A stretch of 11,091 nucleotides of DNA from Desulfobacterales bacterium (GTDB lineage: Bacteria; Desulfobacterota; Desulfobacteria; Desulfobacterales; Desulfosalsimonadaceae). Where the stretch lies: NCBI GenBank assembly GCA_018334855.1, contig JAGXLE010000019.1, positions 1 through 11,091 on the forward strand, written 5' to 3'. The stretch's first letter is position 1, and the number at the start of each line of letters is the position of its first letter. The position numbers were made by a program, and so were the translations under genes. The notes beneath the pieces are model-generated. The model was given only the letters and a program-made list of their open reading frames with translations, did not search any database and was not told the DNA's origin. Below, piece by piece: positions 1 through 11,091 of this stretch.

Positions 1-22
1 GCCATCTAAAAAATTGACTTCC

Positions 23-114
23 AAGGAAACCCAAGGTCGGGATCGGTTTTTGAAGCGACATTGAGCGCTTGCGGTCAGGAGCAAAAAAATTGATCCCGAC
101 CGCAGGGTTTCCTT
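23..114. repeat. Long inverted repeat (two-part stem)
   Basis: Outer arms AAGGAAACCC (23-32) and GGGTTTCCTT (105-114) are perfect complements, and so are the inner arms GGTCGGGATC (35-44) and GATCCCGACC (92-101). They are separated by a small internal loop (AA against GCA). A further short stem, AAGCG (53-57) with CGCTT (66-70), sits in the middle. There is no T-run after the right arm, so this does not look like an ordinary intrinsic terminator. It may be a REP/MITE-like element or an RNA structure in the 3' region of an upstream gene lying outside the window. Confidence 0.7.
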
Positions 115-126
115 CCTTCAAAAAAT

Positions 127-138
127 CCGCCGCGGCGG
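127..138. repeat. GC-only perfect palindrome
   Basis: CCGCCGCGGCGG is a perfect 12-bp palindrome lying 34 bp upstream of the GTG start at 173. It could be a protein-binding site or a small hairpin in the leader of the membrane-protein gene. No function can be assigned. Confidence 0.4.
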
Positions 139-172
139 TGTAAACAGCTTTTTACGAGACGGGAGACTATCG

Positions 173-553
173 GTGAGTTTTTCCAGGATGCTGGCCAGGC
201 AGTTGATCAAAACCAAGTTTGCCCATCGGGCCGTGGCTGAAAATGCGGATTTGAGTGTTTTCCGGCAGAAGCCTTCGGGCAGGATGCTTACGGGACTGGG
301 ATGCATAGCGTTGAGCTATATCGCGTGCTGGCCGGTTATAGGTGCGCTGAGCGTATTTGCGATATATATCGGCCAGTCGCTCTTGATTGTCATCGGAGGG
401 CCGGTCATCTGGACCGCATGCCATTTTCTGTGCATGTTTGGAGTATATATGGCCGGAGCGGACCATTCAAAAGCGTTTTTAAAATGGGCCATCCGTATAT
501 TTGTTGAAAAGCACGTGCCGGAAAAAGTACCGGAGCAGAATTTATCTTCCTGA
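173..553 (+). CDS. Small two-helix membrane protein, function unknown
   Basis: This 126-residue protein is not recognised as a known family. It starts at GTG 173, chosen because GGGAG (161-165) lies 7 bases upstream. The N-terminal ~35 residues are basic and polar (many K and R). Two hydrophobic stretches follow, about residues 39-66 and 70-94, with glycines and a proline in each, suggesting a helical hairpin in the inner membrane. The C-terminal tail is charged and ends in a proline- and glutamate-rich segment. No catalytic motif is visible. It is on the same strand as the fatty-acid operon but separated from it by 358 bp with its own promoter signals, so it is probably a separate transcript. 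A role in membrane or lipid biology is only a guess from location. The clean ribosome-binding site and hydrophobicity pattern make it likely a real gene. Confidence 0.65.
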   Translation: MSFSRMLARQLIKTKFAHRAVAENADLSVFRQKPSGRMLTGLGCIALSYIACWPVIGALSVFAIYIGQSLLIVIGGPVIWTACHFLCMFGVYMAGADHSKAFLKWAIRIFVEKHVPEKVPEQNLSS

Positions 554-619
554 AACAACAAAAGATATAATTTTTATCCCTTCTTCTGAACACCTTTTCA
601 ATTCGATTTTTATGCACCC

Positions 620-640
620 CATGTACAAGGCCTGTACATG
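620..640. promoter_or_regulatory. Perfect 8-bp dyad, candidate operator or enhancer site
   Basis: CATGTACA (620-627) and TGTACATG (633-640) form a perfect inverted repeat with a 5-base spacer (AGGCC). Its centre is about 120 bp upstream of the -12 part of the sigma-54-like promoter at 739-754. That is the usual distance for an enhancer-binding-protein site. A TetR-type or other dimeric regulator is an alternative. There is no flanking T-run, so it is not a terminator. Confidence 0.5.
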
Positions 641-699
641 AAATGTCTGAAACAGCGGTTGCCCGGAATGGTGTCGCAAGGTAATCATATAATTTTTTA

Positions 700-713
700 C
701 TGATTTAAATCAA
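700..713. promoter_or_regulatory. FNR/CRP-family-like box
   Basis: CTGATTTAAATCAA matches the FNR consensus TTGAT-N4-ATCAA at nine of ten fixed positions, and its core TGATTTAAATCA is a perfect palindrome. It sits about 40 bp upstream of the sigma-54-like element. AT-rich half-palindromes of this type also arise by chance, so the call is tentative. Confidence 0.35.
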
Positions 714-738
714 GAAGTTATATGAAGGCAGGAAAAGT

Positions 739-754
739 CGGCACGATTTTTGTA
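739..754 (+). promoter_or_regulatory. Sigma-54-like -24/-12 promoter
   Basis: The sequence CGGCACG-N4-TTGTA resembles the sigma-54 consensus TGGCACG-N4-TTGCW. The -24 GG is at 740-741 with the usual 10 bases before the -12 pair, which is GT rather than GC. There are two mismatches: C for T at 739 and T for C at 753. The expected start of transcription is near 764-766, which gives a leader of about 147 bases before the fabD-type gene at 912. It would be the promoter of the ten-gene operon. Confidence 0.5.
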
Positions 755-758
755 TGTA

Positions 759-775
759 TCTAAAGTGACTTTAGA
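759..775. promoter_or_regulatory. Perfect 17-bp dyad at the predicted transcription start
   Basis: TCTAAAGT (759-766) and ACTTTAGA (768-775) are perfect complements around a single central G. The dyad sits immediately after the -12 element and covers the predicted start site, a position typical of a repressor operator. Confidence 0.5.
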
Positions 776-813
776 GAAATAAGCCGCAATTCAGAGAATC
801 AAAAAGGCTTTCT

Positions 814-836
814 GCTGTCCTTTTCAGAAGGACAGC
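814..836 (+). promoter_or_regulatory. Leader hairpin, possible attenuator
   Basis: GCTGTCCTT (814-822) pairs perfectly with AAGGACAGC (828-836) around a 5-base loop. The 3' side continues with CCTTTCTGC, which is pyrimidine-rich but not a clean T-run. An AAAGG (803-807) can also pair with CCTTT (837-841), leaving a 6-base bulge. It lies in the untranslated leader of the operon, 75 bp before its first gene, and could be a weak terminator/attenuator or a stabilising stem. Confidence 0.45.
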
Positions 837-911
837 CCTTTCTGCAATTCTTTCAGCGCTTAAAACTTAAATTTTTAAACATTTAATACTAATCCATTTC
901 TGGAGGTAGTT

Positions 912-1853
912 ATGGAAAATACAGCAACAGCCGTGGTTTTTCCCGGACAGGGAGCCCAGCGCCCGGGAATGGGAAAGGATTTTTACGATAACATCGAGAT
1001 CAGCCGTAAAACATACCAGGAAGCCTCCGACGTACTCGGATGGGATGTAGGGGCATTGTGTTTTTCCGAAGATGAGAGGATGAACCTGACCGAGTTTGCC
1101 CAGCCCTGCATCCTTGCCACTGAGATAGCCATGCTGCGGGGGATGCAGGATTTATACGGCTTTTGCCCCGATTATTTCGGAGGCCACAGCCTGGGCGAAT
1201 ATACGGCAATGGTGGCAGCCGGGGCTATTTCGTTTCCAGACGCTCTTAAAATTGTCGAAACCAGGGGCAGTCTGATGCAGGAGGCCTCTCCTCCCGGCCA
1301 GGGCGCAATGGCTGCAGTGATCGCAAAAAATATAGATATTGAGCGGATCAGGGAAATTCTCCGGGGGCTGCCGGTGGATATGGCCAATATAAACTCCACC
1401 GACCAGGTGGTTATAAGCGGCCGGGCCGACAGCATGGACAGCGCCAGGGAGCGCATCGCCAAAGAAATCGGTGATGAGGAGAATATGAGGTTTGTCCCGC
1501 TAAACGTAAGCGCCCCGTTCCACAGCCGATTCATGAATGTGGTCAAGGACAAGTTCCGCGAGGTGTTAACCGCGGTTGCGGCAAGGCTTAATTCAGGCAA
1601 CGCTGCACGGGTCACCTCCAACTACACGGGCTGGTTTCATTCCGACATGACAGCCAGTATCATAGAGGCGCTCGTAGCACAGTTGAGTGGCTCGGTAAAA
1701 TGGCGGGACAACATGCAGGCACTGGCTGAAAAGTCCCAGAGAATCTATGAGATCGGGCCGAACCGCCCCCTGAAGAACTTTTTCAGAAGCCTTGATATAA
1801 ACTGCCGCTCGATCACCACCTTTTCTGCGGCTGAGAGGGAATTTTCAGTATGA
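912..1853 (+). CDS. fabD: Malonyl-CoA:ACP transacylase (FabD type)
   Basis: It transfers malonyl from coenzyme A to the phosphopantetheine arm of an acyl carrier protein, supplying extender units for the downstream ketosynthases in the cytoplasm. The 313-residue length matches the family. Visible motifs are the N-terminal FPGQGAQ with the oxyanion glutamine (Q13), the nucleophile elbow GHSLG with Ser93, the malonyl-binding arginine R118 in the ETRGSLMQ stretch, a QVVISG segment, and APFHS with the catalytic His204. The spacing equals that of E. coli FabD (S92, R117, H201). GGAGG (902-906) lies 5 bases before the ATG, the strongest ribosome-binding site of the operon. It is the first gene of the operon and overlaps the next by 4 bp (ATGA). 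A generic acyltransferase loading another unit is possible, but the arginine favours malonyl. Confidence 0.93.
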   Translation: MENTATAVVFPGQGAQRPGMGKDFYDNIEISRKTYQEASDVLGWDVGALCFSEDERMNLTEFAQPCILATEIAMLRGMQDLYGFCPDYFGGHSLGEYTAMVAAGAISFPDALKIVETRGSLMQEASPPGQGAMAAVIAKNIDIERIREILRGLPVDMANINSTDQVVISGRADSMDSARERIAKEIGDEENMRFVPLNVSAPFHSRFMNVVKDKFREVLTAVAARLNSGNAARVTSNYTGWFHSDMTASIIEALVAQLSGSVKWRDNMQALAEKSQRIYEIGPNRPLKNFFRSLDINCRSITTFSAAEREFSV

Positions 1854-2791
1854 TGCATTCTGACAGGAACTGGTGGGCCGTCATTGTAGGGGGATCAAGC
1901 GGATTCGGCCTGGCGGCTGCAAAAAAGCTTGCCGCACACGGGATAAACGTCTGCATTGTACACCGAGACCGGCGCAGCGCCATGAAGAAAATCGAGCCCG
2001 AGTTTGACCAGCTGCGCAAAAGCGGGGCCGGGGTGCTTACTTTTAATCTTGACGGGCTTTCAGACGACGGCCGGACCCGGGTGCTTGACGGACTTGGCGA
2101 AAAGCTTGGAAACGAGGGCAGGGTCCGTCTTCTTTTGCACAGCGTAGCATTCGGTAATCTCAAGCTTCTGGGCCCGTACCCGGGATCGGATGTACCGGCC
2201 GCGTCCCGCGAAAAAATTGCAGATGAAGCCGGGATTTCAAAAGAGCGGATGAATGAGATCATAAGCAATGCTTTTGCCGAGGGCTATGATGCTTTTTATC
2301 CGCTGGTCGACGATGCTTCGGACTACAGCAACAGCCAGTTTCTGGAGTCCGAGGATTTTTCCCGCACCCTTCATGCCATGGGATACAATGTAGTTGAATG
2401 GGTGCAGGACATGATAGGCAGAGACTTTTTTGCCGAAGATGCCCGGGTGCTCGGCCTGACCAGCGAGGGAAACAGCGTTGCATGGAAAGGTTATGCGGCC
2501 ATTTCGGCCGCTAAGGCGGTTCTGGAGTCGGTTTCCAGGGCAATGGCGGTGGAATTCGCCCCTCAGGGAATAAGGTCCAATATTATACAGGCAGGCATTA
2601 CAGATACCCCGGCGCTGCAGGCCATACCCGGCAGTCACCGGATCCGTGCCCAGGCAGCTCTGCGCAATCCTTTCGGCAGGCTGACAACACCCGAAGATGT
2701 GGCAAACGTGATATATCTATTGTGCCTGGATGAGGCGGCATGGATTAACGGTGCGCTGATATGTGCTGACGGCGGTGAGAGGATCGGGTAA
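1850..2791 (+). CDS. SDR-family enoyl-ACP reductase-like protein
   Basis: Probably reduces trans-2-enoyl-ACP with NAD(P)H, the last step of the elongation cycle. It has a Rossmann fold with the glycine motif GGSSGFG (residues 14-20), a HSVAFGNL stretch resembling the FabI HSI(G/A)F region, and the catalytic pair Tyr215-x6-Lys222, the spacing of enoyl reductases rather than the YxxxK of ketoreductases. A serine (S205) stands where FabI has its second tyrosine. A C-terminal SNIIQAGITDT segment and a final NGALICADGG complete the fold. At 313 residues it is longer than FabI (about 260). The extra residues lie at about 105-180, where FabI proteins have a short loop. It starts inside the stop of fabD, so it is translationally coupled; a second ATG follows directly at 1853. 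Its exact substrate is inferred from context. Confidence 0.8.
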   Translation: MMHSDRNWWAVIVGGSSGFGLAAAKKLAAHGINVCIVHRDRRSAMKKIEPEFDQLRKSGAGVLTFNLDGLSDDGRTRVLDGLGEKLGNEGRVRLLLHSVAFGNLKLLGPYPGSDVPAASREKIADEAGISKERMNEIISNAFAEGYDAFYPLVDDASDYSNSQFLESEDFSRTLHAMGYNVVEWVQDMIGRDFFAEDARVLGLTSEGNSVAWKGYAAISAAKAVLESVSRAMAVEFAPQGIRSNIIQAGITDTPALQAIPGSHRIRAQAALRNPFGRLTTPEDVANVIYLLCLDEAAWINGALICADGGERIG

Positions 2792-2794
2792 TAC

Positions 2795-3787
2795 ATGATT
2801 TATCTGCACGGGCTGGGTCATTTTTACCCGGAAAACGTAATTACCAATAAATTTATCAGCGAGCTTGATATCGGCAGCGATGAGCAGTGGATCATGGAGC
2901 GGGTGGGAATTGCCGAGCGCCGTACCTCCCTGAGTCTCGATTATATCAAAAAGACAAAAAACAGCGATCCCAGGGCCGCTTCTGAGGCAAGCATCCATAC
3001 CCGGGCCGAGGCCGGGGCTGCGGCTGCGGCAATGGCCTTGCAAAGGGCCGGCCTGTCTGCCGGAGATATCGGAATGGTTATTTCCGGAACCTCCACCCCG
3101 CATTATACCATTCCCGCAGAAGCCTCGATAATTGCTGCAGAGCTCGGAATAGAGGCGCCCTGTTTTGACATTAATGCGGCATGCTCCACCTTTGTGGTGC
3201 AGATGGCGTGTTTAGGACAGATGTCGGCCGGGCACACCCCTAATTTTGTTCTGGTGGTCAACCCTGAAAACTACACCCACGTGGTCGATTATTCAGACCG
3301 CCGGGTCGCCCCGCTGTTCGGCGACGGCTGCAGTGCTGCTGTAATTTCAGCAAGCGAGCCCTCAAAAAAGCGATTCGAAGTCTTTGATTACGGTTCCCGC
3401 CCGGATTCATGGGAGAAGGTGCGGATTCCCAGGGCCGGCCATTTCAGCCAGGACGGAAGCTATGTACAGCGTTTTGCCATCAGGAAAGCCACCGAAGGCG
3501 TGAGGCAGCTCCAGCAGCAGTACCCGGCAGATACGGAAAAGTTTAAATTCGTGGGCCATCAGGCCAACCTGATGATGCTAAATACGGTCTGCCGCAGGTG
3601 TGATATTCCGGAATCGCGGCATCTGTATAACGTGGTTGATTTCGGCAACACCGGCTGTTCAAGCGCTCCGGCGGTTTTGAGCCAGAACTGGGACCGTCTT
3701 TGTCCGGGTGATCATATCGCCGTGGCTGTTGTCGGCTCGGGACTGACCTGGGGGCATACCCTGCTGAAAATCACCGCAGAGGAATAA
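2795..3787 (+). CDS. 3-oxoacyl-ACP synthase III (FabH type)
   Basis: A chain-initiating ketosynthase that condenses an acyl-CoA starter with malonyl-ACP. The thiolase-fold catalytic triad is complete: Cys130 in NAACST, His255 in GHQAN and Asn285 in FGNTGCSS, in the order and spacing of FabH. The protein has 330 residues against 317 in E. coli. The C-terminus VAVVGSGLTWGHTLLK resembles the FabH glycine-rich end. It starts 3 bases after the reductase stop, with a GAGAGG purine stretch at 2776-2781 as a possible ribosome-binding site. Starter preference (acetyl-, branched or longer acyl-CoA) cannot be read from the sequence. A specialised KAS III member is possible because housekeeping FabH is usually found with plsX, which is absent here. 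Confidence 0.88.
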   Translation: MIYLHGLGHFYPENVITNKFISELDIGSDEQWIMERVGIAERRTSLSLDYIKKTKNSDPRAASEASIHTRAEAGAAAAAMALQRAGLSAGDIGMVISGTSTPHYTIPAEASIIAAELGIEAPCFDINAACSTFVVQMACLGQMSAGHTPNFVLVVNPENYTHVVDYSDRRVAPLFGDGCSAAVISASEPSKKRFEVFDYGSRPDSWEKVRIPRAGHFSQDGSYVQRFAIRKATEGVRQLQQQYPADTEKFKFVGHQANLMMLNTVCRRCDIPESRHLYNVVDFGNTGCSSAPAVLSQNWDRLCPGDHIAVAVVGSGLTWGHTLLKITAEE

Positions 3788-3790
3788 TTG

Positions 3791-4351
3791 ATGAAATACG
3801 AAGAGTTTTTACAGCAGCAAAGCTTTGACCTGCAGGAGCTAATTGCTTTTTCATACGGAAGGCTTATTGACGACCCACCGGAAGGCTTTGACGCCCGGCT
3901 GCCGGCGCCGCCTTTTTTAATGGTCGACAGGATTGTCTCCATTGACAGCAACGGCAACAAGGGCGGCATTGTAGCCGAGCAGGACATAAGGCTGGATGCA
4001 TGGTATTTCCAGTGTCATTTTCCTGATGACCCGGTTCAGCCGGGGTGCTTGGGAGTGGATGCTGTATGGCAGCTGCTGGGTTTTTATGGTGTCTGGCGCG
4101 GAGGCATCGGGGCCGGCAGGGCCCTTGGAAGCGAGGAGGTGGTTTTCAACGGCCAGATCAGGCCGCACAACAGTGTTGTCCGCTTTGAAATAGATGTAAT
4201 AAGATTCAGGGATATGAAAAGCAGCGGATCGAGTATCGTAATGGCAAACGCCTCCATCCTGGCTGACGGAGAAGTCGTGGCAACAATTAAAAAGGCAAGA
4301 TCCGGAATTTTCAAAGGCATTGCATATAAGAATTACCCCTATCAGGAATGA
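3791..4351 (+). CDS. fabA: FabA-type 3-hydroxyacyl-ACP dehydratase/isomerase
   Basis: It dehydrates 3-hydroxyacyl-ACP, and true FabA enzymes also isomerise trans-2- to cis-3-enoyl-ACP, which keeps a double bond in the growing chain. The 186-residue protein closely follows E. coli FabA: CHFPDDPVQPGCLGVDAVWQ contains the catalytic His76 and Asp90, 14 residues apart as in E. coli (H70, D84), followed by LLGFY and GRALG. The aspartate instead of glutamate and the PGCLG turn distinguish it from FabZ. ATG 3791 is preferred over the adjacent TTG 3788 because AGAGGA (3778-3783) lies 7 bases upstream. It is 3 bases from the FabH stop. Isomerase activity is inferred from similarity. The N-terminus (residues 1-30) is more divergent than the core. 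Confidence 0.9.
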   Translation: MKYEEFLQQQSFDLQELIAFSYGRLIDDPPEGFDARLPAPPFLMVDRIVSIDSNGNKGGIVAEQDIRLDAWYFQCHFPDDPVQPGCLGVDAVWQLLGFYGVWRGGIGAGRALGSEEVVFNGQIRPHNSVVRFEIDVIRFRDMKSSGSSIVMANASILADGEVVATIKKARSGIFKGIAYKNYPYQE

Positions 4352-4360
4352 GTTGTTATT

Positions 4361-5113
4361 ATGTCAGAAACTGGTGATAAAACAGAAAACAAGCCGGTTG
4401 CCGTTGTAACAGGCGCTGCCGGCGGAATCGGCGCGGCCTGCTGCAGGGCGCTTTTTGGGAAGGGGTTTGCCGTGGGCATCCATTACCGCAAAAGCCGGGA
4501 GCCCGCAGAGGCTCTTCTGTCCGAAATCAACGGGGAAGGCTTTCTTCTGGAAGCCGATCTCGCCTCGGCCGAACAGATCGACGCCATGGTCAACACCATA
4601 AAGAAGGAAGCCGGCAGGGTGGACGTCCTTGTAAACAATGCGGGTATGTCTGTAAATGAACCGATCCATTCCATGAAGCTCGATGATTTCGATGCCCAGC
4701 GGGTGATGTCCAGGGGCGCCTGGTATCTTACCAAGCGCGTTTTGCGGGTATTTATGATCCGGCGTTCATCCGGCAGGATTATCAATATTTCCAGCGTGGT
4801 GGGTCATACAGGAAATGCCGGCCAGATTGCCTATACCATGGAAAAGGCCGCGATGGATGCCATGACCAAGTCGCTTGCAAAAGAGCTTGCCGGAAGAAAT
4901 ATCCTGGTCAATTCGGTGGCTCCGGGCTTTATTGATACTGAGATGACGGGCGAACTTCCGGAAGAAGTGCGCCGGAAGATACTTGACACCGTTTCTCTCG
5001 GACGCATGGGCAGAGCCGATGAGGTCGCAGAGGTGGTTGCCTTTCTTGCCGCCGGGGCAAGCTATATCAACGGTAGCGTGATTCATGTAAACGGGGGTAT
5101 GTACGGTGGCTGA
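4361..5113 (+). CDS. fabG: 3-oxoacyl-ACP reductase (FabG type)
   Basis: An NADPH-dependent ketoreductase of the classical SDR family that converts 3-oxoacyl-ACP to 3-hydroxyacyl-ACP. It shows the cofactor motif TGAAGGIG near residue 17, the structural NNAG motif, and the catalytic Ser145, Tyr158 and Lys162 (AYTMEK). These have the same 13- and 4-residue spacings as in E. coli FabG. The end, INGSVIHVNGGMYGG, matches the usual C-terminus. The length of 250 residues is typical. Odd points are REPAEALL in place of the usual TSE start of the second helix, and DFDAQRVMSRGAWYLTKRV in the region that normally reads as the NL(T/K)G substrate loop, which suggests a specialised substrate. It lies 9 bases after fabA with a weak ribosome-binding site, and overlaps the next gene by 8 bp. 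Confidence 0.9.
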   Translation: MSETGDKTENKPVAVVTGAAGGIGAACCRALFGKGFAVGIHYRKSREPAEALLSEINGEGFLLEADLASAEQIDAMVNTIKKEAGRVDVLVNNAGMSVNEPIHSMKLDDFDAQRVMSRGAWYLTKRVLRVFMIRRSSGRIINISSVVGHTGNAGQIAYTMEKAAMDAMTKSLAKELAGRNILVNSVAPGFIDTEMTGELPEEVRRKILDTVSLGRMGRADEVAEVVAFLAAGASYINGSVIHVNGGMYGG

Positions 5114-5576
5114 TGCGCACATGATTAAGCAGGTTCTTGACATGGTACCCCAGCAGAGGCCGTTTCGTTTTATAGATGATATCGAGAAGGTCGACGATAA
5201 AGAAATAAGGGCAGTCTACCGGTTCCGCGAAGATGAATATTTTTATGAAGGTCATTTTCCCGGCTATCCGATTACCCCGGGTGTCATTTTAATAGAAACC
5301 ATGGCCCAGGCCGGTGTAGTGGCCCTGGGAATTGCGATACTGCTTACCCAGGGAAAGCCGGTTTCTGAAATAAAGAAAATGAAGACGCTGTTTACCTTTG
5401 CCGAATCAGTGGAGTTTACCGGCATGGTGGAACCCGGGGAGAAAGTTGTCATTTACGGGGAAAAAATTTATTTTCGAAGGGGCAGCATCAAAACAAGGGC
5501 CGGTATTGCACGTGAAAACGGGGAATCCGTGTGCACCGGCGTTCTTATGGGAACAGGAGTCAATCTCGATGTATAA
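5106..5576 (+). CDS. fabZ: FabZ-type 3-hydroxyacyl-ACP dehydratase
   Basis: A hot-dog-fold dehydratase that forms trans-2-enoyl-ACP. The signature YEGHFPGYPITPG then LIETMAQAG carries the catalytic His50 and Glu64, the histidine-to-glutamate pair of FabZ (14 residues apart), unlike the His/Asp pair of the FabA-type gene upstream. The length of 156 residues is normal. The GTG start at 5106 is chosen because GGGGG (5093-5097) lies 8 bases upstream; ATG 5121 is a less supported alternative. It overlaps fabG by 8 bp and the following ketosynthase by 8 bp, so all three are likely translationally coupled. Having both FabA and FabZ types in one operon suggests that some cycles go to saturation and others retain a double bond. 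Confidence 0.92.
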   Translation: MADAHMIKQVLDMVPQQRPFRFIDDIEKVDDKEIRAVYRFREDEYFYEGHFPGYPITPGVILIETMAQAGVVALGIAILLTQGKPVSEIKKMKTLFTFAESVEFTGMVEPGEKVVIYGEKIYFRRGSIKTRAGIARENGESVCTGVLMGTGVNLDV

Positions 5577-6855
5577 CAGGGTGGTAATCACCGGAATGGG
5601 AGTGGTCAGCCCCAACGGAATAGGTCTTGCCGATTTCGAACAGGCGCTGCGCGAAGGCAGGTCAGGCATACGGTTTATTCCCAGGCTGGAGGAGCTTAAA
5701 TTTGCCTGCCGCATAGGCGGGATACCGCAGAATTTTGAGTCCGCCTGCGGAGAGTATTTCAATAACTACCGGCAGCAGTCATTTTTAAGCGAAACCATCC
5801 GGTATGCCGCGGTAGCAGCCGTGGATGCCTGGCGGGACGCAGGGCTTTCCATCCCTTCAGATGAAGAGCCTCCTGACTGGAATTCCGGCACTGTTTTCGG
5901 ATGCGGTATTTCGGACATGGAGGTAATAGCCAATGAGGTGGTACCTACCGTCAATGCCGGAAAGGTCCGCAGGCTTGGCACCAGGGTTGTTGAACGGGTT
6001 ATGGGCAGCGGTACCAGCGCGCGTCTCGGCGGAATTCTGGGCCTGGGCAACCAGGTGACCTCGAATTCATCGGCCTGCAGTACCGGTTCGGAGGCTGTGG
6101 CTGAAGCCGCCTGGAAAATCCGCATCGGGCTTGCCAAAAGAATGGTTGCGGGCGGTGCGGAAGGTGCATCTCCGTATACCTGGAGCGGGTTTGACTCCAT
6201 GAGGGTGCTGGCGCGCAAATTCAACGATGACCCGGAGAAGGGTTCGCGTCCCATGAGTGCATCTGCAGGCGGGTTTGTGCCAGGGGCAGGTTCGGCGGCC
6301 CTTGTCCTGGAAGATCTGGAGACGGCTAAGGCCCGGGGTGCAAAGATTTACGCGGAAGTGCTCGGTGTCATGGTCAATTCAGGAGGGCATCGCAACGGCG
6401 GTTCAATGACCGCCCCTAACCCGGAGGGGGTCCAGCGGTGTATCCGGGGAGCTATTGCGGATGCAGGCATCGAAGCCGGGGAGATTGACGCAGTAAACGG
6501 CCACCTGACAGCTACTTTTGCCGATCCGCACGAGGTGAAAAACTGGTCGGCCGCACTGGAGAGGGGGCCGGAAAGTTTTCCCTGGATAAATTCCACGAAA
6601 TCGATGATCGGCCACTGCCTGGGCGCGACCGGTGCTATTGAAACAGTGGCTTCAGTGCTGGAACTTGACAGGGGTTTTCTGCATCCCTCAGTTAACTGTG
6701 AGGATCCTCATCCGGAACTTGAAGCCTTTTCAGACAGGGTGGTACGTGAATGCATGGAGACGCCAGAGCTTAAAACCATTGCCAAGGCATGTTTCGGATT
6801 CGGGGATGTTAATTCCTGCCTTATACTTAGAAAAGCGGTGACGGGTGACCAGTGA
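5569..6855 (+). CDS. 3-oxoacyl-ACP synthase, FabB/FabF family, atypical
   Basis: An elongating ketosynthase that condenses acyl-ACP with malonyl-ACP. The 428-residue chain begins MYNRVVITGMGVVSPNG, the usual FabF start. The frame is open further upstream, but ATG 5569 has AGGAG (5555-5559) 9 bases before it and overlaps fabZ by only 8 bp. The active site is complete: Cys170 (SACSTG), His312 (NGHLTAT) and His349 (TKSMIGH, with Lys344). Two conserved stretches are unusual: the RDGFVxGEGAG segment reads AGGFVPGAGSA (residues 233-243), losing the acidic residues, and the NAHGT motif reads NGHLT. Since Cys and both His are kept, it should be a condensing enzyme and not a chain-length factor. The last codons and the stop lie inside a heptamer repeat array. 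Confidence 0.87.
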   Translation: MYNRVVITGMGVVSPNGIGLADFEQALREGRSGIRFIPRLEELKFACRIGGIPQNFESACGEYFNNYRQQSFLSETIRYAAVAAVDAWRDAGLSIPSDEEPPDWNSGTVFGCGISDMEVIANEVVPTVNAGKVRRLGTRVVERVMGSGTSARLGGILGLGNQVTSNSSACSTGSEAVAEAAWKIRIGLAKRMVAGGAEGASPYTWSGFDSMRVLARKFNDDPEKGSRPMSASAGGFVPGAGSAALVLEDLETAKARGAKIYAEVLGVMVNSGGHRNGGSMTAPNPEGVQRCIRGAIADAGIEAGEIDAVNGHLTATFADPHEVKNWSAALERGPESFPWINSTKSMIGHCLGATGAIETVASVLELDRGFLHPSVNCEDPHPELEAFSDRVVRECMETPELKTIAKACFGFGDVNSCLILRKAVTGDQ

Positions 6856-6914
6856 CGCGTGACGGGTGACAAGTGAACCGTGAACCATTAACCGTGAACT
6901 ATGAACTATGAACC
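6838..6914 (+). repeat. Tandem array of eleven degenerate heptamers
   Basis: Eleven 7-base units lie in perfect register: GTGACGG, GTGACCA, GTGACGC, GTGACGG, GTGACAA, GTGAACC, GTGAACC, ATTAACC, GTGAACT, ATGAACT, ATGAACC. The consensus is RTGAMNN, drifting from GTGAC-type to GTGAAC/ATGAAC-type. The array begins inside the ketosynthase gene, supplies its last residues and stop codon (TGA 6853-6855), and fills the gap to the ACP ribosome-binding site. Confidence 0.85.
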
Positions 6915-6932
6915 ATAAAGGGGGAAAGAAAA

Positions 6933-7199
6933 ATGGATAAAGAACAGATTTTCAACGATGTCGTAGGCATCATCAAGGATTATGTAAAAGAACCCGCAAG
7001 GCTTGAAAAAGTGGATATGGATACCTCCATTCTCGATGACCTCAAGGTCAACTCCGCAAGGCTCGTCGATATTATTATCCAGTTCGAGGACACCTTTGAC
7101 ATCGAGATCGAAGACGAGGATGCAGATAATATCCGTACCATAGGGGATGCGGTAAATTACATCGCAGGCAGAGTGCAGTCTGACCGGGCAGCAAAATAA
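6933..7199 (+). CDS. Acyl carrier protein, atypical
   Basis: This 88-residue acidic four-helix carrier protein holds growing acyl chains on a phosphopantetheine arm. Ser41 in KVNSARLVDIIIQFED is the attachment site. The usual DSL reads NSA here, so the aspartate before the serine and the leucine after it are both replaced. Helix II remains acidic further on (FEDTFDIEIEDEDAD). The ATG at 6933 has GGGGG (6920-6924) 8 bases upstream, a strong site fitting the high expression typical of ACPs. It follows the ketosynthase after a 77-bp gap made largely of heptamer repeats, and the acyltransferase begins 3 bases after its stop. The altered motif suggests it is used by the local enzymes and loaded by the local PPTase instead of the housekeeping system. 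Confidence 0.9.
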   Translation: MDKEQIFNDVVGIIKDYVKEPARLEKVDMDTSILDDLKVNSARLVDIIIQFEDTFDIEIEDEDADNIRTIGDAVNYIAGRVQSDRAAK

Positions 7200-7202
7200 G
7201 TC

Positions 7203-7943
7203 ATGGAAGATTCAGTCAAACGCTCCCTGGATTTCCAGGAGGCTCTGGGCAGGTTTGCTGTATTATTTACCGCCCCCCTGCTGACCCTTGCAGTTAAGCT
7301 TCTCGGATACCGGGTGCGGAATCTGCGGGAAACCCGGCGCAGGATCAACGCACTGATGCGTCGTCACAGCGGCCCCTGGCTGATATGCGCCAATCATCTG
7401 ACACTTATCGATTCGTTTATCCTGGCCTATGCCATGTTTCCGGCTTACAGGTACATGATTCATTTCCGCCTTGTGCCGTGGAACATGCCTGAATACATGA
7501 ATTTCAACCGCAACAAGCTGGTGGGCGGCTTTTGCTACTTGATAAAGTGCATTCCGGTAATACGCGGCGGGGACAGAGAGGCGGTGAATCTGAGCCTGGA
7601 AAAGTGTGTCCGCATCCTGCGCAAGGGGGAAAACCTGATGATTTTTCCCGAAGGAACCCGCTCGCGCACGGGAATGGTCAATACCCGGGATTACACATAC
7701 AATGTAGGCAGATGGTTCTGCAATATCGAAAACCTCCGGGTTATGTGCATTTATCTCAGGGGCGACGGACAGAAGACCTACAGTGATTTCCCTCGCTTCG
7801 GGGAAAGATTTACCATGAAAGTGGAGCAATGCAGGCCTCACACCAATTTAAAGGGTCTGCGGGCTCACAGGGAATGCGCCAGGCAGATTATCCAACATCT
7901 TGCCAGAATGGAGAGGCAATATTTTACCGCACGTGGGAAATGA
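7203..7943 (+). CDS. PlsC-type 1-acyl-glycerol-3-phosphate acyltransferase family
   Basis: A membrane-associated acyltransferase that probably moves an acyl chain from ACP or CoA to a hydroxyl acceptor such as a glycerolipid. Motif I is NHLTLID (His65 to Asp70, the HxxxxD catalytic pair), motif II is the CIPVIRGG stretch, and motif III is FPEGTRS (residues 148-154). These are the conserved blocks of the LPLAT family. A hydrophobic N-terminal stretch (about residues 14-34) may anchor it to the inner membrane. The 246-residue length is normal. It starts 3 bases after the ACP stop without a strong ribosome-binding site, indicating coupling. Next to an ACP and a PPTase, it is the best candidate for releasing the product, since no thioesterase is seen. 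Whether the acceptor is lysophosphatidate, an ether lipid or another alcohol is unknown. Confidence 0.86.
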   Translation: MEDSVKRSLDFQEALGRFAVLFTAPLLTLAVKLLGYRVRNLRETRRRINALMRRHSGPWLICANHLTLIDSFILAYAMFPAYRYMIHFRLVPWNMPEYMNFNRNKLVGGFCYLIKCIPVIRGGDREAVNLSLEKCVRILRKGENLMIFPEGTRSRTGMVNTRDYTYNVGRWFCNIENLRVMCIYLRGDGQKTYSDFPRFGERFTMKVEQCRPHTNLKGLRAHRECARQIIQHLARMERQYFTARGK

Positions 7944-8592
7944 TATAGTTGACCTCAGGGACGCGAATTCAGCCGGCAAAAGTCAGGATGAACGGTTTGT
8001 CGGCAGGGTGCTTGTCAAATCGGAGATGCGGGAGATGGAGCGGGCCAAATTCCCGGATAAATGGCTTTGGTCTGCCTGGGCGGCAAAAGAAACCGCATAT
8101 AAGGTGATTTCCAAGGCACGGCCGGATATAAAGTCTTCTCCGCGAAGCTACGAGGTTAGTTTTGAAGACGCAAAGATCGGCGAAAAATTTCCGGGGAGAG
8201 TTGCAACACCGGCGGAAACTGTGCACATACTGTTAAGTATCAATGAGAATTATATTCACTGTATCGGCAGAACCGGGAAAAGGCCTTTCTGGAAAGATAT
8301 AATAAGTGAGGCAAACCATATTGCACCGGATCCGGGCTGCGGCGGTGATTGCAATTCCGAGCGGCAGTCGGCGGCCGTGCGCCTGGCGGCCCGCAAACGC
8401 ATTGCCTCGATAATTGATCTGCGCGCAGACGATATTGCCATCGAGCGAAGCAAAGGTCCCCGAGGACCGACCCCTCCGGCTGTGTATATCAGGGGCGAGA
8501 TGGCAGAGATCGACATCAGCCTGAGCCATCACGGCCGGTTTGCAGCTTTTGCCTTTCACGGCGGCAATCTCATCTCTACAAAAATCCGCTGA
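7933..8592 (+). CDS. 4'-phosphopantetheinyl transferase
   Basis: It attaches the phosphopantetheine arm of coenzyme A to the serine of acyl carrier proteins. The signature motifs are present: GNDIVDL at the very N-terminus (Mg-binding aspartate) and WAAKETAYK about 45 residues later (the WxxKEAxxK block), followed by a C-terminal ISLSHHGRFAAFAF strand. The start is uncertain. GTG 7933 puts GNDIVDL at residue 2, as in many family members, with GGAGAGG (7910-7916) rather far upstream. TTG 7900 would add 11 residues but lacks a ribosome-binding site. It overlaps the acyltransferase by 11 bp (44 bp with the longer start). The length of about 219 residues lies between AcpS (about 125) and Sfp-like enzymes. 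Its place in the operon implies activation of the local ACPs. Confidence 0.86.
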   Translation: MGNDIVDLRDANSAGKSQDERFVGRVLVKSEMREMERAKFPDKWLWSAWAAKETAYKVISKARPDIKSSPRSYEVSFEDAKIGEKFPGRVATPAETVHILLSINENYIHCIGRTGKRPFWKDIISEANHIAPDPGCGGDCNSERQSAAVRLAARKRIASIIDLRADDIAIERSKGPRGPTPPAVYIRGEMAEIDISLSHHGRFAAFAFHGGNLISTKIR

Positions 8593-9664
8593 TATCCACT
8601 CCCCGCATTTTTGCCCGTGTCTCATACCATCTCATTTCGTCTTCCGGGGGCGTTTTTATCTGCTCCTCGGGCTTGCGAACCAGCGATATGGCACGTTCCG
8701 GGCAGGCATTGACGCAAAGCCCGCAGCCGATGCACCTTTCAGTTATCACCCGGCAGTATTCTTCTCCCTGTTCAATGGCGTTGACCTGGCAACGCTCTTG
8801 GGCACAAATTCCGCAGGCAGTGCATGATTTCGGGTCGATTTGCGCATAATAATGGGAATTGACCACCTGGGAGGCCGGAAATCCCATTTCGTTGATACCG
8901 CGCAGCACAGCGCAGCAGCATCCGCAGCAGTTGCATATGAAGTAATGACCGTTTTGCACGTTCCAGGTCATGTGGACAAGGCTTTGTTCCTCGGCCCGGT
9001 TTAACAGGTCATAAGCCTCCTGTTTGGTCATCACCGTTCCATAGGGATGATTATCGAACAGGCCTTTAATGGGTGCGTATGCTGTACATACCTGCGTGGG
9101 TCTGTCGCAGGGTCTTCCCAGAAGCGCTTTTTCCTTTTTGCAGATACAGTCATAATACATGAAGGACTTGCTGTTTTCGATAATACTGGAGACCCGCTCG
9201 TGGGACAGCACCCGGTGCCTGTCGTTAATTTCTTCTTCAATCGGGATTACCTGCATCAGGGGGGGAGTGTTTTCAAAAAACTGTTTGCCGAAGGCATCCA
9301 GGTATTGCTCGCACATCTCGGCCATTTCCCGGTCAATGCGGGGCATCTGCAGCTCATATATTCCAAAGGCCCAGGGTATCATCCGATAGACTTTAAACCC
9401 GCCCACGTCGATTCCGAAAATCTGGCCCTTCCTGGTCATAACATCGAGTTTTTCCTCCAGCTCTGCCGGCGGACGGCCGATGCGCTGGGAAATCTGTTCC
9501 GGGGTTTCGAAATTGAGCCTCAGTCTGCAGAATAATTCCGCCTCGTCCGGGTCGAAGATCTTTTTGAGCAGCCTGATTTCGATTCCGTCTTCTGTCGGCG
9601 GAAATCCATTTGGCAGGGTATCTAACACCCCGGCCAGTTTTCGGTATGGGCCTTCTTCATTCAT
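8576..9664 (-). CDS. Iron-sulfur protein with two C-terminal ferredoxin-type cluster sites
   Basis: A 362-residue cytoplasmic protein with no signal peptide. The N-terminal part (about residues 30-90) resembles a winged-helix fold of the type seen in DNA-binding or adaptor domains (TPEQISQRIGRPPAELEEKLDVMTRKG). A middle region has unusual cysteine clusters: CIC (173, 175), C186, C193 and CNCCGCCC (244-251). The C-terminus has two ferredoxin sites: C281-C284-C287-C292, which has an extra residue before the last cysteine and no following proline, and C311-C314-C317-C321-P, which is canonical. AAGGAGG (9673-9679 on this strand) lies 8 bases before the ATG. It is convergent with the operon and overlaps its last gene by 17 bp. 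It likely transfers electrons; the partner and any link to the fatty-acid genes are unknown. Confidence 0.82.
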   Translation of the reverse strand: MNEEGPYRKLAGVLDTLPNGFPPTEDGIEIRLLKKIFDPDEAELFCRLRLNFETPEQISQRIGRPPAELEEKLDVMTRKGQIFGIDVGGFKVYRMIPWAFGIYELQMPRIDREMAEMCEQYLDAFGKQFFENTPPLMQVIPIEEEINDRHRVLSHERVSSIIENSKSFMYYDCICKKEKALLGRPCDRPTQVCTAYAPIKGLFDNHPYGTVMTKQEAYDLLNRAEEQSLVHMTWNVQNGHYFICNCCGCCCAVLRGINEMGFPASQVVNSHYYAQIDPKSCTACGICAQERCQVNAIEQGEEYCRVITERCIGCGLCVNACPERAISLVRKPEEQIKTPPEDEMRWYETRAKMRGVDISGFL

Positions 9665-9760
9665 GAGTCTTGCCTCCTTAATCTTTAAAAAGAGAAGCTG
9701 AGTGTTTTTTACGGTAATTTGTAAGCTACACAGGCAATTGCGGGTTTATCAAATGTTGCC

Positions 9761-9789
9761 TTGACTCTTCGTTCTGTTTGCCTTAAAGT
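9761..9789 (+). promoter_or_regulatory. Possible sigma-70-type promoter
   Basis: TTGACT (9761-9766) matches five of six -35 positions, with a 17-base spacer and TAAAGT (9784-9789) matching four of six -10 positions. It would transcribe towards the second ACP gene at 10068, giving a long leader that includes the palindromic element below. It is a plausible match only. Confidence 0.35.
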
Positions 9790-9803
9790 TAATTTTTTAA
9801 AGG

Positions 9804-9872
9804 TTGTATCCTTAATAAACTGGCAGCATCAGGGCCGAAAAAGTTTGAATGCATGCCGCTGTTAGGATACAA
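9804..9872. repeat. Inverted repeat with 9-bp outer arms
   Basis: TTGTATCCT (9804-9812) and AGGATACAA (9864-9872) are perfect complements about 50 bp apart. GGCAGCAT and ATGCATGCC in the interior can also pair with one extra base. The pairing suggests a folded leader RNA or a small mobile-type repeat directly beside the larger palindromic element. Confidence 0.5.
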
Positions 9873-9876
9873 TATC

Positions 9877-10019
9877 AGTGCCCATCCAGAAATGGCTAAT
9901 TTGCCCAATTTCTGCGTCAGGCTCAAATTTTAATCCTCAAAATACTTTGAGTATTCCTGCGGTTAAAATTTTCGCCTTCCTTGAACTTGGACAAATTATC
10001 TGATTTCTGGACGGACACT
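9877..10019. repeat. 143-bp imperfect palindrome (MITE/REP-like element)
   Basis: The two 70-base halves fold onto each other around an exact centre at 9948: AATACT (9941-9946) and AGTATT (9950-9955) flank a TTG loop. The outermost 17 bases of each arm match at 15 positions, sharing AGTG then TCCAGAAAT. The middle shares AATTTG and AATTTTAA blocks with small offsets. No open reading frame is inside. The shape and the sharp termini suggest a non-autonomous mobile element or extragenic palindromic repeat. Nothing similar is repeated elsewhere in this window. Confidence 0.75.
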
Positions 10020-10030
10020 ATTTAACAATG

Positions 10031-10042
10031 AAAATCGATTTT
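10031..10042. promoter_or_regulatory. Short perfect palindrome before the second ACP gene
   Basis: AAAATCGATTTT is a perfect 12-bp palindrome ending 25 bp before the ATG at 10068. A TATAAA-like -10 (10049-10054) follows it but has no clear -35. It may be a small regulatory site; AT-rich chance occurrence is possible. Confidence 0.25.
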
Positions 10043-10067
10043 AACACTATAAAATAGACAGGCTATT

Positions 10068-10352
10068 ATGACTCGACAGGAAATACAAACAGAAATATAT
10101 AAAATATTTCAGGAGCAGTTTGAAATTGAAAATCCGGGAGCCGATGATGACTTAAAGGACATGCACGGCTTTGACAGCATAGATGCCATAGAGCTGCTCA
10201 TTGAGATAGAAAAAATGCTTCAGGTCAACCTTGATCAGGAAACAAAAAAAGATGCAATGCTCCACATCCGGACTGTCAACCAGATCTGCGATTACGTTGA
10301 AATGCTGCTGGACCGCTACGGTGTCGTAAATCAAAGCGCCCTGAACCAGTAA
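10068..10352 (+). CDS. Acyl carrier protein (second)
   Basis: A 94-residue acidic carrier protein. Ser37 in FDSIDAIELLIEIEKML is the phosphopantetheine site, with the aspartate kept and isoleucine replacing the usual leucine (DSI). The motif is followed by an acidic helix II. It differs clearly from the first ACP (NSA motif) and has a longer C-terminal tail. ATG 10068 has AGACAGG (10056-10062) a short distance upstream, a moderate ribosome-binding site. It opens a second plus-strand unit, and its stop codon overlaps the ATG of the next ketosynthase by one base (TAATG), so the two are translationally coupled and probably act as partners. DSI-type ACPs occur in some polyene and secondary-lipid pathways, but the product cannot be told from this. 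Confidence 0.9.
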   Translation: MTRQEIQTEIYKIFQEQFEIENPGADDDLKDMHGFDSIDAIELLIEIEKMLQVNLDQETKKDAMLHIRTVNQICDYVEMLLDRYGVVNQSALNQ

Positions 10353-11091
10353 TGGACAGAAGAGTAGTCATAACATCAGAAGCCGCAATCACACCCATCG
10401 GAAATTCGAAGGATTCAATCATCAACAATCTCCTTGAGGGAGTCTCCGGTGTCGGCCCGCTTAAAGATGATGGCCTTCTGACCGATTATATTCATTCCAA
10501 GGTGTACGGGACGGTTGACTATTCCATTGACTATGATTTTGGCCGCAAATACCGCAAAACCATGGGGCCTGTATCCTTTTACGCCTGCCAGGCGGTAAAG
10601 GATCTGCTGGCAAAAGCTGGTTTGGACCAGGATTTTATATCTTCAGGCAGGCTTGGAGTCGCATTCGGTTCCACCCACGGGAGCCCTTCGGTGCAGCGCA
10701 GCATTTACAGGACTTTTTTCCGCGAAGACCCCTCTGAAACCGGTACAATCGGCGCTGTGGATTACCTGAAATCAATGGTGCACACCACGGCCGTAAATAT
10801 TACCAAAATGTTTAATATTACCGGCCGGGTGTTATCATCATCCACCGCGTGCACTACAAGCAGCCAGTCCATCGGGTTCGGGTATGAAATGATTAAATAC
10901 GGCATGCAGGACGCGATGATCTGCGGCGGAGCAGATGAGTACGACACCACCACTGTTGCAGTTTTCGATAATCTGTTGGCCTGTTCCACGGCCTACAATG
11001 ACACCCCTCATTTAACGCCCAGGCCGTTTGACACCGGGCGCGACGGCCTTGTGGTGGGAGAGGGAGCAGGGGCGGTGCTTCTGGAGGCCCC
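10352..11091 (+). CDS. 3-oxoacyl-ACP synthase, FabB/FabF family (cut by window end)
   Basis: The first 246 residues of an elongating ketosynthase are present, and the reading frame runs off the window edge. It starts MDRRVVITSEAAITPIGN, at an ATG overlapping the ACP stop by one base. The nucleophile is Cys167 in SSTACTTSSQS. The conserved RPFDTGRDGLVVGEGAG (from residue 224) is canonical, in contrast to the altered segment in the first ketosynthase. The two catalytic histidines lie beyond the window. It pairs with the second ACP and probably begins a further group of biosynthetic genes. It could be a chain-extending ketosynthase for polyene or long-chain acyl products. Confidence 0.88.
   Translation, partial: MDRRVVITSEAAITPIGNSKDSIINNLLEGVSGVGPLKDDGLLTDYIHSKVYGTVDYSIDYDFGRKYRKTMGPVSFYACQAVKDLLAKAGLDQDFISSGRLGVAFGSTHGSPSVQRSIYRTFFREDPSETGTIGAVDYLKSMVHTTAVNITKMFNITGRVLSSSTACTTSSQSIGFGYEMIKYGMQDAMICGGADEYDTTTVAVFDNLLACSTAYNDTPHLTPRPFDTGRDGLVVGEGAGAVLLEA

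Follow-up and report, generated by a model that had tools for sequence, protein, structure and literature searches.

Is a compact set of ten fatty-acid synthesis genes that includes its own acyl carrier protein (ACP), phosphopantetheinyl transferase (PPTase) and acyltransferase the housekeeping synthase of the cell, or a second one devoted to a particular lipid? This question is raised by a stretch of 11,091 nucleotides from a Desulfobacterales bacterium of the Desulfosalsimonadaceae (GenBank assembly GCA_018334855.1, contig JAGXLE010000019.1, positions 1 to 11,091 of the forward strand), which we call the window and which is an entire contig (C267) of a genome that is 62% complete. From the gene content and the comparison with relatives, we consider it fairly probable that the ten genes form an accessory, self-activating type II fatty acid synthase that would deliver its chain to a membrane lipid. 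They are located between positions 912 and 8592, all in the same orientation, and a Pfam match was obtained for each of the ten proteins, with E values from 3e-7 to 2e-54. In gene order they are:

912..1853, + strand: acyltransferase (AT), FabD-type malonyl-CoA:ACP transacylase (PF00698, 8e-32; TIGR00128 fabD, 254.7 bits, slightly below the cut-off of 260.9).
1850..2791, + strand: putative enoyl reductase (ER), a short-chain dehydrogenase/reductase (SDR) of FabI/FabL type (PF13561, 3e-38; invariant Tyr215-x6-Lys222).
2795..3787, + strand: priming ketosynthase (KSIII) (PF08545/PF08541; Cys-His-Asn aligned with solved FabH).
3791..4351, + strand: FabA-type dehydratase, possibly also an isomerase (alignment with solved FabA; alternative start TTG 3788).
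4361..5113, + strand: FabG-type 3-ketoacyl-ACP reductase (KR) (PF13561, 2e-54; TIGR01830, 240.9 bits, cut-off 297.75).
5106..5576, + strand: FabZ-type dehydratase (PF07977, 1e-16; alignment with solved FabZ).
5569..6855, + strand: elongating ketosynthase (KS) of a clade distinct from FabF (PF00109/PF02801; solved FabF/FabB; phylogenetic tree).
6933..7199, + strand: ACP with an Asn-Ser-Ala attachment site (PF00550, 3e-7).
7203..7943, + strand: PlsC-like lysophospholipid acyltransferase (LPLAT), the proposed off-loading enzyme (PF01553, 7e-14).
7933..8592, + strand: PPTase (PF01648, 1e-7; AcpS structures match weakly, E 0.012; alternative start TTG 7900).

The gene coordinates show how closely these genes are packed. 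At seven of the nine junctions the neighbours overlap (by 4, 8, 8 and 11–44 bases) or are at most 3 bases apart (gaps of 3, 0–3 and 3), and the two wider gaps are those between FabA and KR (9 bases) and between KS and ACP (77 bases). For the KS the ATG at 5569 is a more likely start than that of the longest open reading frame (ORF) at 5398, and for the PPTase the GTG at 7933 is more likely than the TTG at 7900. The ten coupled genes and seven tight junctions claimed in a first-pass annotation of this DNA are thus borne out by the coordinates and by Pfam. The FabA-type protein scored 189.4 bits with PRK05174 (cut-off 124) and 154.9 with TIGR01749 fabA, below the cut-off of 238.15.

Alignment with solved structures located the Cys/His/Asn of the KSIII, the His...Asp of the FabA-type enzyme, the His...Glu of the FabZ-type enzyme and the Cys/His/His of the KS, which are the catalytic residues of these enzymes. 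The ER keeps its Tyr-x6-Lys in 42/42 aligned relatives, with the spacing of FabI/FabL, and it carries an insert of about 40–50 residues from which the Bacteroidota relatives in the alignment are free. The malonyl acyltransferase, KS, KR, dehydratase, ER and ACP of a type II synthase are all separately encoded with conserved motifs, the ER being recognized by its motif only.

A complete route can be proposed on this basis. The PPTase would charge the ACP of the operon and the AT would load malonyl, after which the KSIII would condense an acyl-CoA starter with malonyl-ACP. The chain would then be extended in cycles by the KR, the FabZ- or FabA-type enzyme, the ER and the KS. The FabA-type enzyme may isomerize too, giving a cis double bond, and its presence suggests a cis-unsaturated chain. 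Finally, the LPLAT would take the acyl chain over from the ACP and pass it to an acceptor of glycerol or lysolipid type. Release by an acyltransferase is plausible. All of these reactions, as well as the starter, the chain length, the unsaturation and the acceptor, are predicted from sequence, and we infer the enoyl reduction from the Tyr-x6-Lys motif alone.

The type II layout with an ACP and a PPTase of its own would also suit a polyene or polyketide synthase, and a polyene synthase was one of the two options offered by the first-pass annotation. We regard this as very improbable. A polyene product is unlikely because the FabI/FabL-type reductase homologue is conserved, with its motif present in every aligned relative; besides, the ten genes include a single KS, which has no chain-length-factor (CLF) partner, and neither a cyclase nor an aromatase. 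The polyene half of that proposal was therefore dropped, the genes of polyene type found here being those of a flanking cluster (see below).

The accessory synthase reading is in agreement with the phylogeny of the KS. We built a tree of 66 ketosynthases in which the operon was represented by sequences with at least 45% identity to the window KS and more than 380 residues, the Bacteroidota being thinned. The 39 operon sequences were located on one side of a branch of length 2.0 with support 100/100, under record labels that included Thermodesulfobacteriota, Myxococcota, Bdellovibrionota, Spirochaetota, Fidelibacterota, Pseudomonadota and Bacteroidota. FabF (18 rows) formed a separate group (support 98/93), and the operon KS did not group with the FabF of its own order. 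Ten of these 18 FabF belong to genomes in which the operon or a related Bacteroidota module is present too. Nearest to the operon clade were three long-branched rows of unsure placement, the ApeR-like ketosynthase of genome G004 and another two ketosynthases, both from G067. Among the matches listed for the window KS (the best 120 of 8000 candidates scored), the top one was a Desulfobacterales record with 86% identity, together with three of Desulfosalsimonas (84–85%) and two of Desulfosalsimonadaceae (74–75%).

The carrier protein has a signature as well. In 60 of 61 operon-type ACPs (that of the window and 60 others) an Asn precedes the attachment Ser, and the next residue is Ala or Ser in all 61; the three housekeeping ACPs that we read (L153, L158 and L163) have Asp-Ser-Leu. 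Such an odd recognition motif, with a PPTase encoded next to it, suggests that the two proteins are dedicated to each other.

Away from the operon, the same genome contains a FabH (contig C237), an ordinary ACP (C92) and another PPTase (C108), and these support the view of the operon as a second set of fatty acid synthase genes. No further FabD-like AT turned up in this 62%-complete genome, but there is one in each of two congeners, G004 and G008, both 99% complete. For the carrier survey we took the best 80 of 200 loci, and 18 of the genomes behind them, of unstated completeness and kinship, were chosen for a FabF search. A canonical FabF (at least 48% identity to the FabF of the order) was found in 14 of these 18 carriers, corresponding to 6/10 outside the Bacteroidota and 8/8 Bacteroidota with the related module. 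Additional PF01553 acyltransferases appeared in 14/14 genomes searched, so that the LPLAT is not the sole PlsC-like protein; this fits a dedicated role of the LPLAT without proving it. The simple view of the operon as the housekeeping set was rejected on account of the other fabH, acpP and PPTase genes and of the different KS clade. That it is a second, dedicated type II synthase had been anticipated by the first-pass annotation, and the separate FabH, ACP and PPTase, the patchy occurrence of the ER in the family and the FabF of most carriers sustain that view.

Strong matches to the ER were found in 9/9 members of the genus, in 16/27 other members of the family and in 1/24 genomes of other families of the order. 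Outside the Bacteroidota, 43 loci have the ER and 34 hold at least four operon genes, of which 27 are collinear with the window. The same gene order in unrelated genomes indicates that the operon is not a chance association. Six of the seven exceptions lack a KSIII at position three and have a PRK07515-type KSIII after the PPTase instead (573 bits against a cut-off of 304 in G009, the copies of the six loci being 70–86% identical to that one); one of the six has an additional KS and another has no KR match. The remaining exception, L023, looks like an ORF artefact in which the KSIII frame opens upstream of the ER. We also noticed adjacent ER–KR pairs with no other operon-gene matches at L021, L024, L031, L035 and L036, where long opposite-strand frames disturb the ORF lists.

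A related module is present in Bacteroidota. All 31 loci with at least four operon genes, out of 37, are collinear. Over L045–L082, with the exception of L050, the module has the order ER-FabZ-KS-ACP(-PPTase), a KS of the same clade and the Asn-Ser motif in the ACP. Unlike the operon, it adjoins type III polyketide synthase (PKS), methyltransferase and FAD-oxidoreductase genes and has no KR, FabA or LPLAT match within it. The methyltransferase family was detected in 33 and the FAD-oxidoreductase family in 32 of the 38 loci L045–L082, while neither appears in the 42 loci L003–L044. The type III PKS is located upstream of the ER in the Bacteroidota loci read (L049, L065 and L067, with Pfam names for L065 only). 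None of the three is found among the window genes by ORF and Pfam analysis. The replacement of the acyltransferase by a type III PKS neighbour suggests an engine that makes acyl chains and can be combined with different hand-off enzymes, and we propose that priming and hand-off enzymes are both exchangeable. An operon of Planctomycetota with methyltransferase, oxidoreductase and type III PKS genes takes part in alkylresorcinol synthesis (PMC10896814).

We have compared the operon with known systems. Housekeeping type II synthesis (fabG-acpP-fabF, fabH, fabD, fabZ) has the same enzyme classes, but differs from it in the KS clade, the ACP motif, the PPTase and LPLAT of the operon and its organization as a single unit. 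The rhizobial cluster for very-long-chain fatty acids (acpXL, fabF2XL, lpxXL) reportedly combines a dedicated ACP, ketosynthases and an acyltransferase, as the operon does. LpxXL is of the LpxL type (PF03279), and the window acyltransferase is, in contrast, a PF01553 protein. The synthases of polyunsaturated fatty acids (pfa) have a multidomain PfaA with tandem ACPs; with ten separate proteins in the operon, this candidate was rejected on architecture. The PRK07515-type KSIII of the six relatives mentioned above we take to be of the PA3286 type, and the window KSIII, at position three, is of another type. FabW of Ralstonia, a strong homologue of PA3286, condenses C2–C10 acyl-CoA with malonyl-ACP (PMC4549310).

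The aryl polyene cluster (ape) of Escherichia coli resembles the operon in its dedicated type II genes, its ACPs and its lysophospholipid acyltransferase ApeD. It differs in that its gene table has no enoyl reductase and the cluster has no PPTase (PMC8253772). Its ketosynthases include a KS-CLF pair, ApeO-ApeC, plus ApeR (PMC8358021). No pair of this type is found in the operon, which has one KS of its own clade, and an ApeO-like fusion appears in the flank. The lack of enoyl reductase and PPTase in the E. coli cluster indicates that the operon itself is no cluster of this kind, but it may contribute to one. Among the top-ranked matches in open-licence literature (titles and abstract openings), we found no description of such an operon.

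Several observations weigh against an accessory synthase that ends in a membrane lipid. The ER stays below every NCBIfam cut-off (top 25 of 199 families), the best being FabL with 109.6 bits against 328; among solved structures it matches general SDRs best, with FabL 3oic as one of them, and the PF13561 cut-off that it exceeds is exceeded by the KR as well. The AT was seen in 21 of the 43 non-Bacteroidota loci, partly owing to contig ends, and the LPLAT could act on other acyl donors. No FabF ortholog was found in four of the ten sampled non-Bacteroidota carriers (G060, G061, G062 and G064). A search with FabF from a related family gave no ortholog either in any of the 36 genomes of the family (G000–G035, 60–100% complete), where the best full-length match had 285 bits and 38% identity. 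In addition, the only PF07977 protein that G004 and G008 have besides those of the operon is a weak ApeI-like one.

The last two results raise the alternative that the operon is the primary fatty acid synthase of the genus, where it would have displaced housekeeping fabF, fabZ and fabG, all three now lost. This would be compatible with the reading preferred here, and we consider it a real but tentative possibility, speaking for which is also the presence of the operon in all the genus members searched. Within the family a 170-residue fragment matching FabF reaches 41% identity; 14 of 18 genomes of other families have FabF (49–75%), the exceptions being G046, G048, G049 and G052. In G045 fabF comes after acpP, but this is the case at none of the seven loci of the family that were read (L153, L155–L158, L160 and L162). 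G000, G004 and G008 (L155–L157) do not have enough room for fabG between acpP and gltX, with no search aimed at fabG elsewhere in the genomes; in G018, G009 and G019 fabG sits precisely there.

Against a takeover by the operon, the housekeeping acpP, FabH and FabD-like AT are retained. The absence of fabG is deduced from the surroundings of acpP in three genomes, and the aryl-polyene-like cluster in the flank has a KR of its own and hotdog proteins, some beyond the reach of the PF07977 model. Furthermore, G018, which is 100% complete, has no FabF, no operon and no elongating ketosynthase of any kind, although it keeps a FabD-like AT, FabH, FabG, FabZ and ACP. Such members without FabF and operon imply that the family must have another elongation route. 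The first-pass annotation had looked to other fab genes in the genome to set the operon apart from the housekeeping set; this was right for fabH, acpP and the PPTase, which are present, and failed for fabF throughout the family and for FabZ in G004 and G008. Because canonical fabF is missing family-wide, the operon probably feeds general lipid synthesis in the genus too, and judging by gene content it may carry primary elongation there; for this genus, a role in a special lipid and a primary role cannot be told apart cleanly. We found no report of FabF loss in the open-licence literature searched.

Joining both lines, we advance with some reserve that a portable family of fatty acid synthases with the Asn-Ser motif and their own PPTase is spread across phyla, hands off its chain through an exchangeable acyltransferase or type III PKS, and would have replaced fabF, fabZ and fabG in one Desulfosalsimonadaceae-like genus. 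If true, the takeover would represent a portable accessory synthase displacing a core and usually conserved pathway. The comparison defines a widespread lineage of complete fatty acid synthases, the product of which is directly testable, and the lack of FabF across the family raises the question of how fatty acids are elongated in these sulfate reducers.

Four further genes are found in the window around the operon:

173..553, + strand: small genus-conserved protein (no Pfam match), adjoining an ApeR-like ketosynthase in G007.
8576..9664, - strand: 4Fe-4S ferredoxin-domain protein, convergent with the operon and given no place in the pathway (PF00037, 1e-8).
10068..10352, + strand: second ACP, with an ordinary Asp-Ser, at the start of aryl-polyene-like genes (PF00550, 2e-8; PRK05350 best, below cut-off).
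10352..11091, + strand: truncated ketosynthase (homologue in a congener, L114:9429-10667; best solved match 7f27, AbApeR).

The interval 912..8592 marked by the first-pass annotation covers the ten genes correctly, but ends before the last two of these, which belong to a flanking aryl-polyene-like cluster. The cluster probably continues on C157 (L148), another contig of this genome. Throughout the genus such a cluster adjoins the operon. In G008, the contig of the operon contains upstream an ApeO-like fused ketosynthase, an LpxL-like acyltransferase, an MMPL transporter, a glycosyltransferase and a hotdog protein, as well as an ACP, a ketosynthase pair, a thioesterase and PlsY; ACP2, the ApeR-like ketosynthase and PlsC are on a second contig, together with an AMP ligase and one more ACP. 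In G004 a separate contig carries the ApeO-like part, and in G007 it carries most of the cluster.

This neighbourhood suggests a further alternative, that the operon is an arm of the aryl-polyene-like pathway and provides a lipid that bears an aryl polyene with its ordinary acyl chains. PlsY is located within a few kilobases upstream in 7/7 genus members whose upstream sequence was read (G001 and G003–G008). The ACP, ApeR-like ketosynthase and PlsC are found downstream of the operon in G003 and G004; in G008 and the window genome they are on what is probably the next contig. The flanking ketosynthases match ApeR and ApeO best among solved structures, the fused one having 6qsp, the ApeO-ApeC complex, as best match. 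However, the operon appears without these neighbours in related genera and other phyla (loci read by eye), and in G007 the cluster is mostly on another contig, even if the thioesterase and PlsY remain beside the operon. We consider this alternative unlikely, though less so than the polyene synthase discussed above, and keep the accessory synthase as the preferred reading.

Some minor features of the surroundings were also recorded. The ferredoxin-domain gene overlaps the PPTase gene by 17 bases and has homologues at L003 (77%) and L146 (74%). In G008 the genes for the ApeR-like ketosynthase, PlsC, AMP ligase and further ACP have a B12-binding radical SAM protein (L146:5833-7242) downstream of them. 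At L141:6393-7769 there is a FabD-like acyltransferase that has about 455 residues, owing in part to a long extension at its N terminus, adjoining a protein of about 1260 residues that, by eye, resembles a fused carboxylase.

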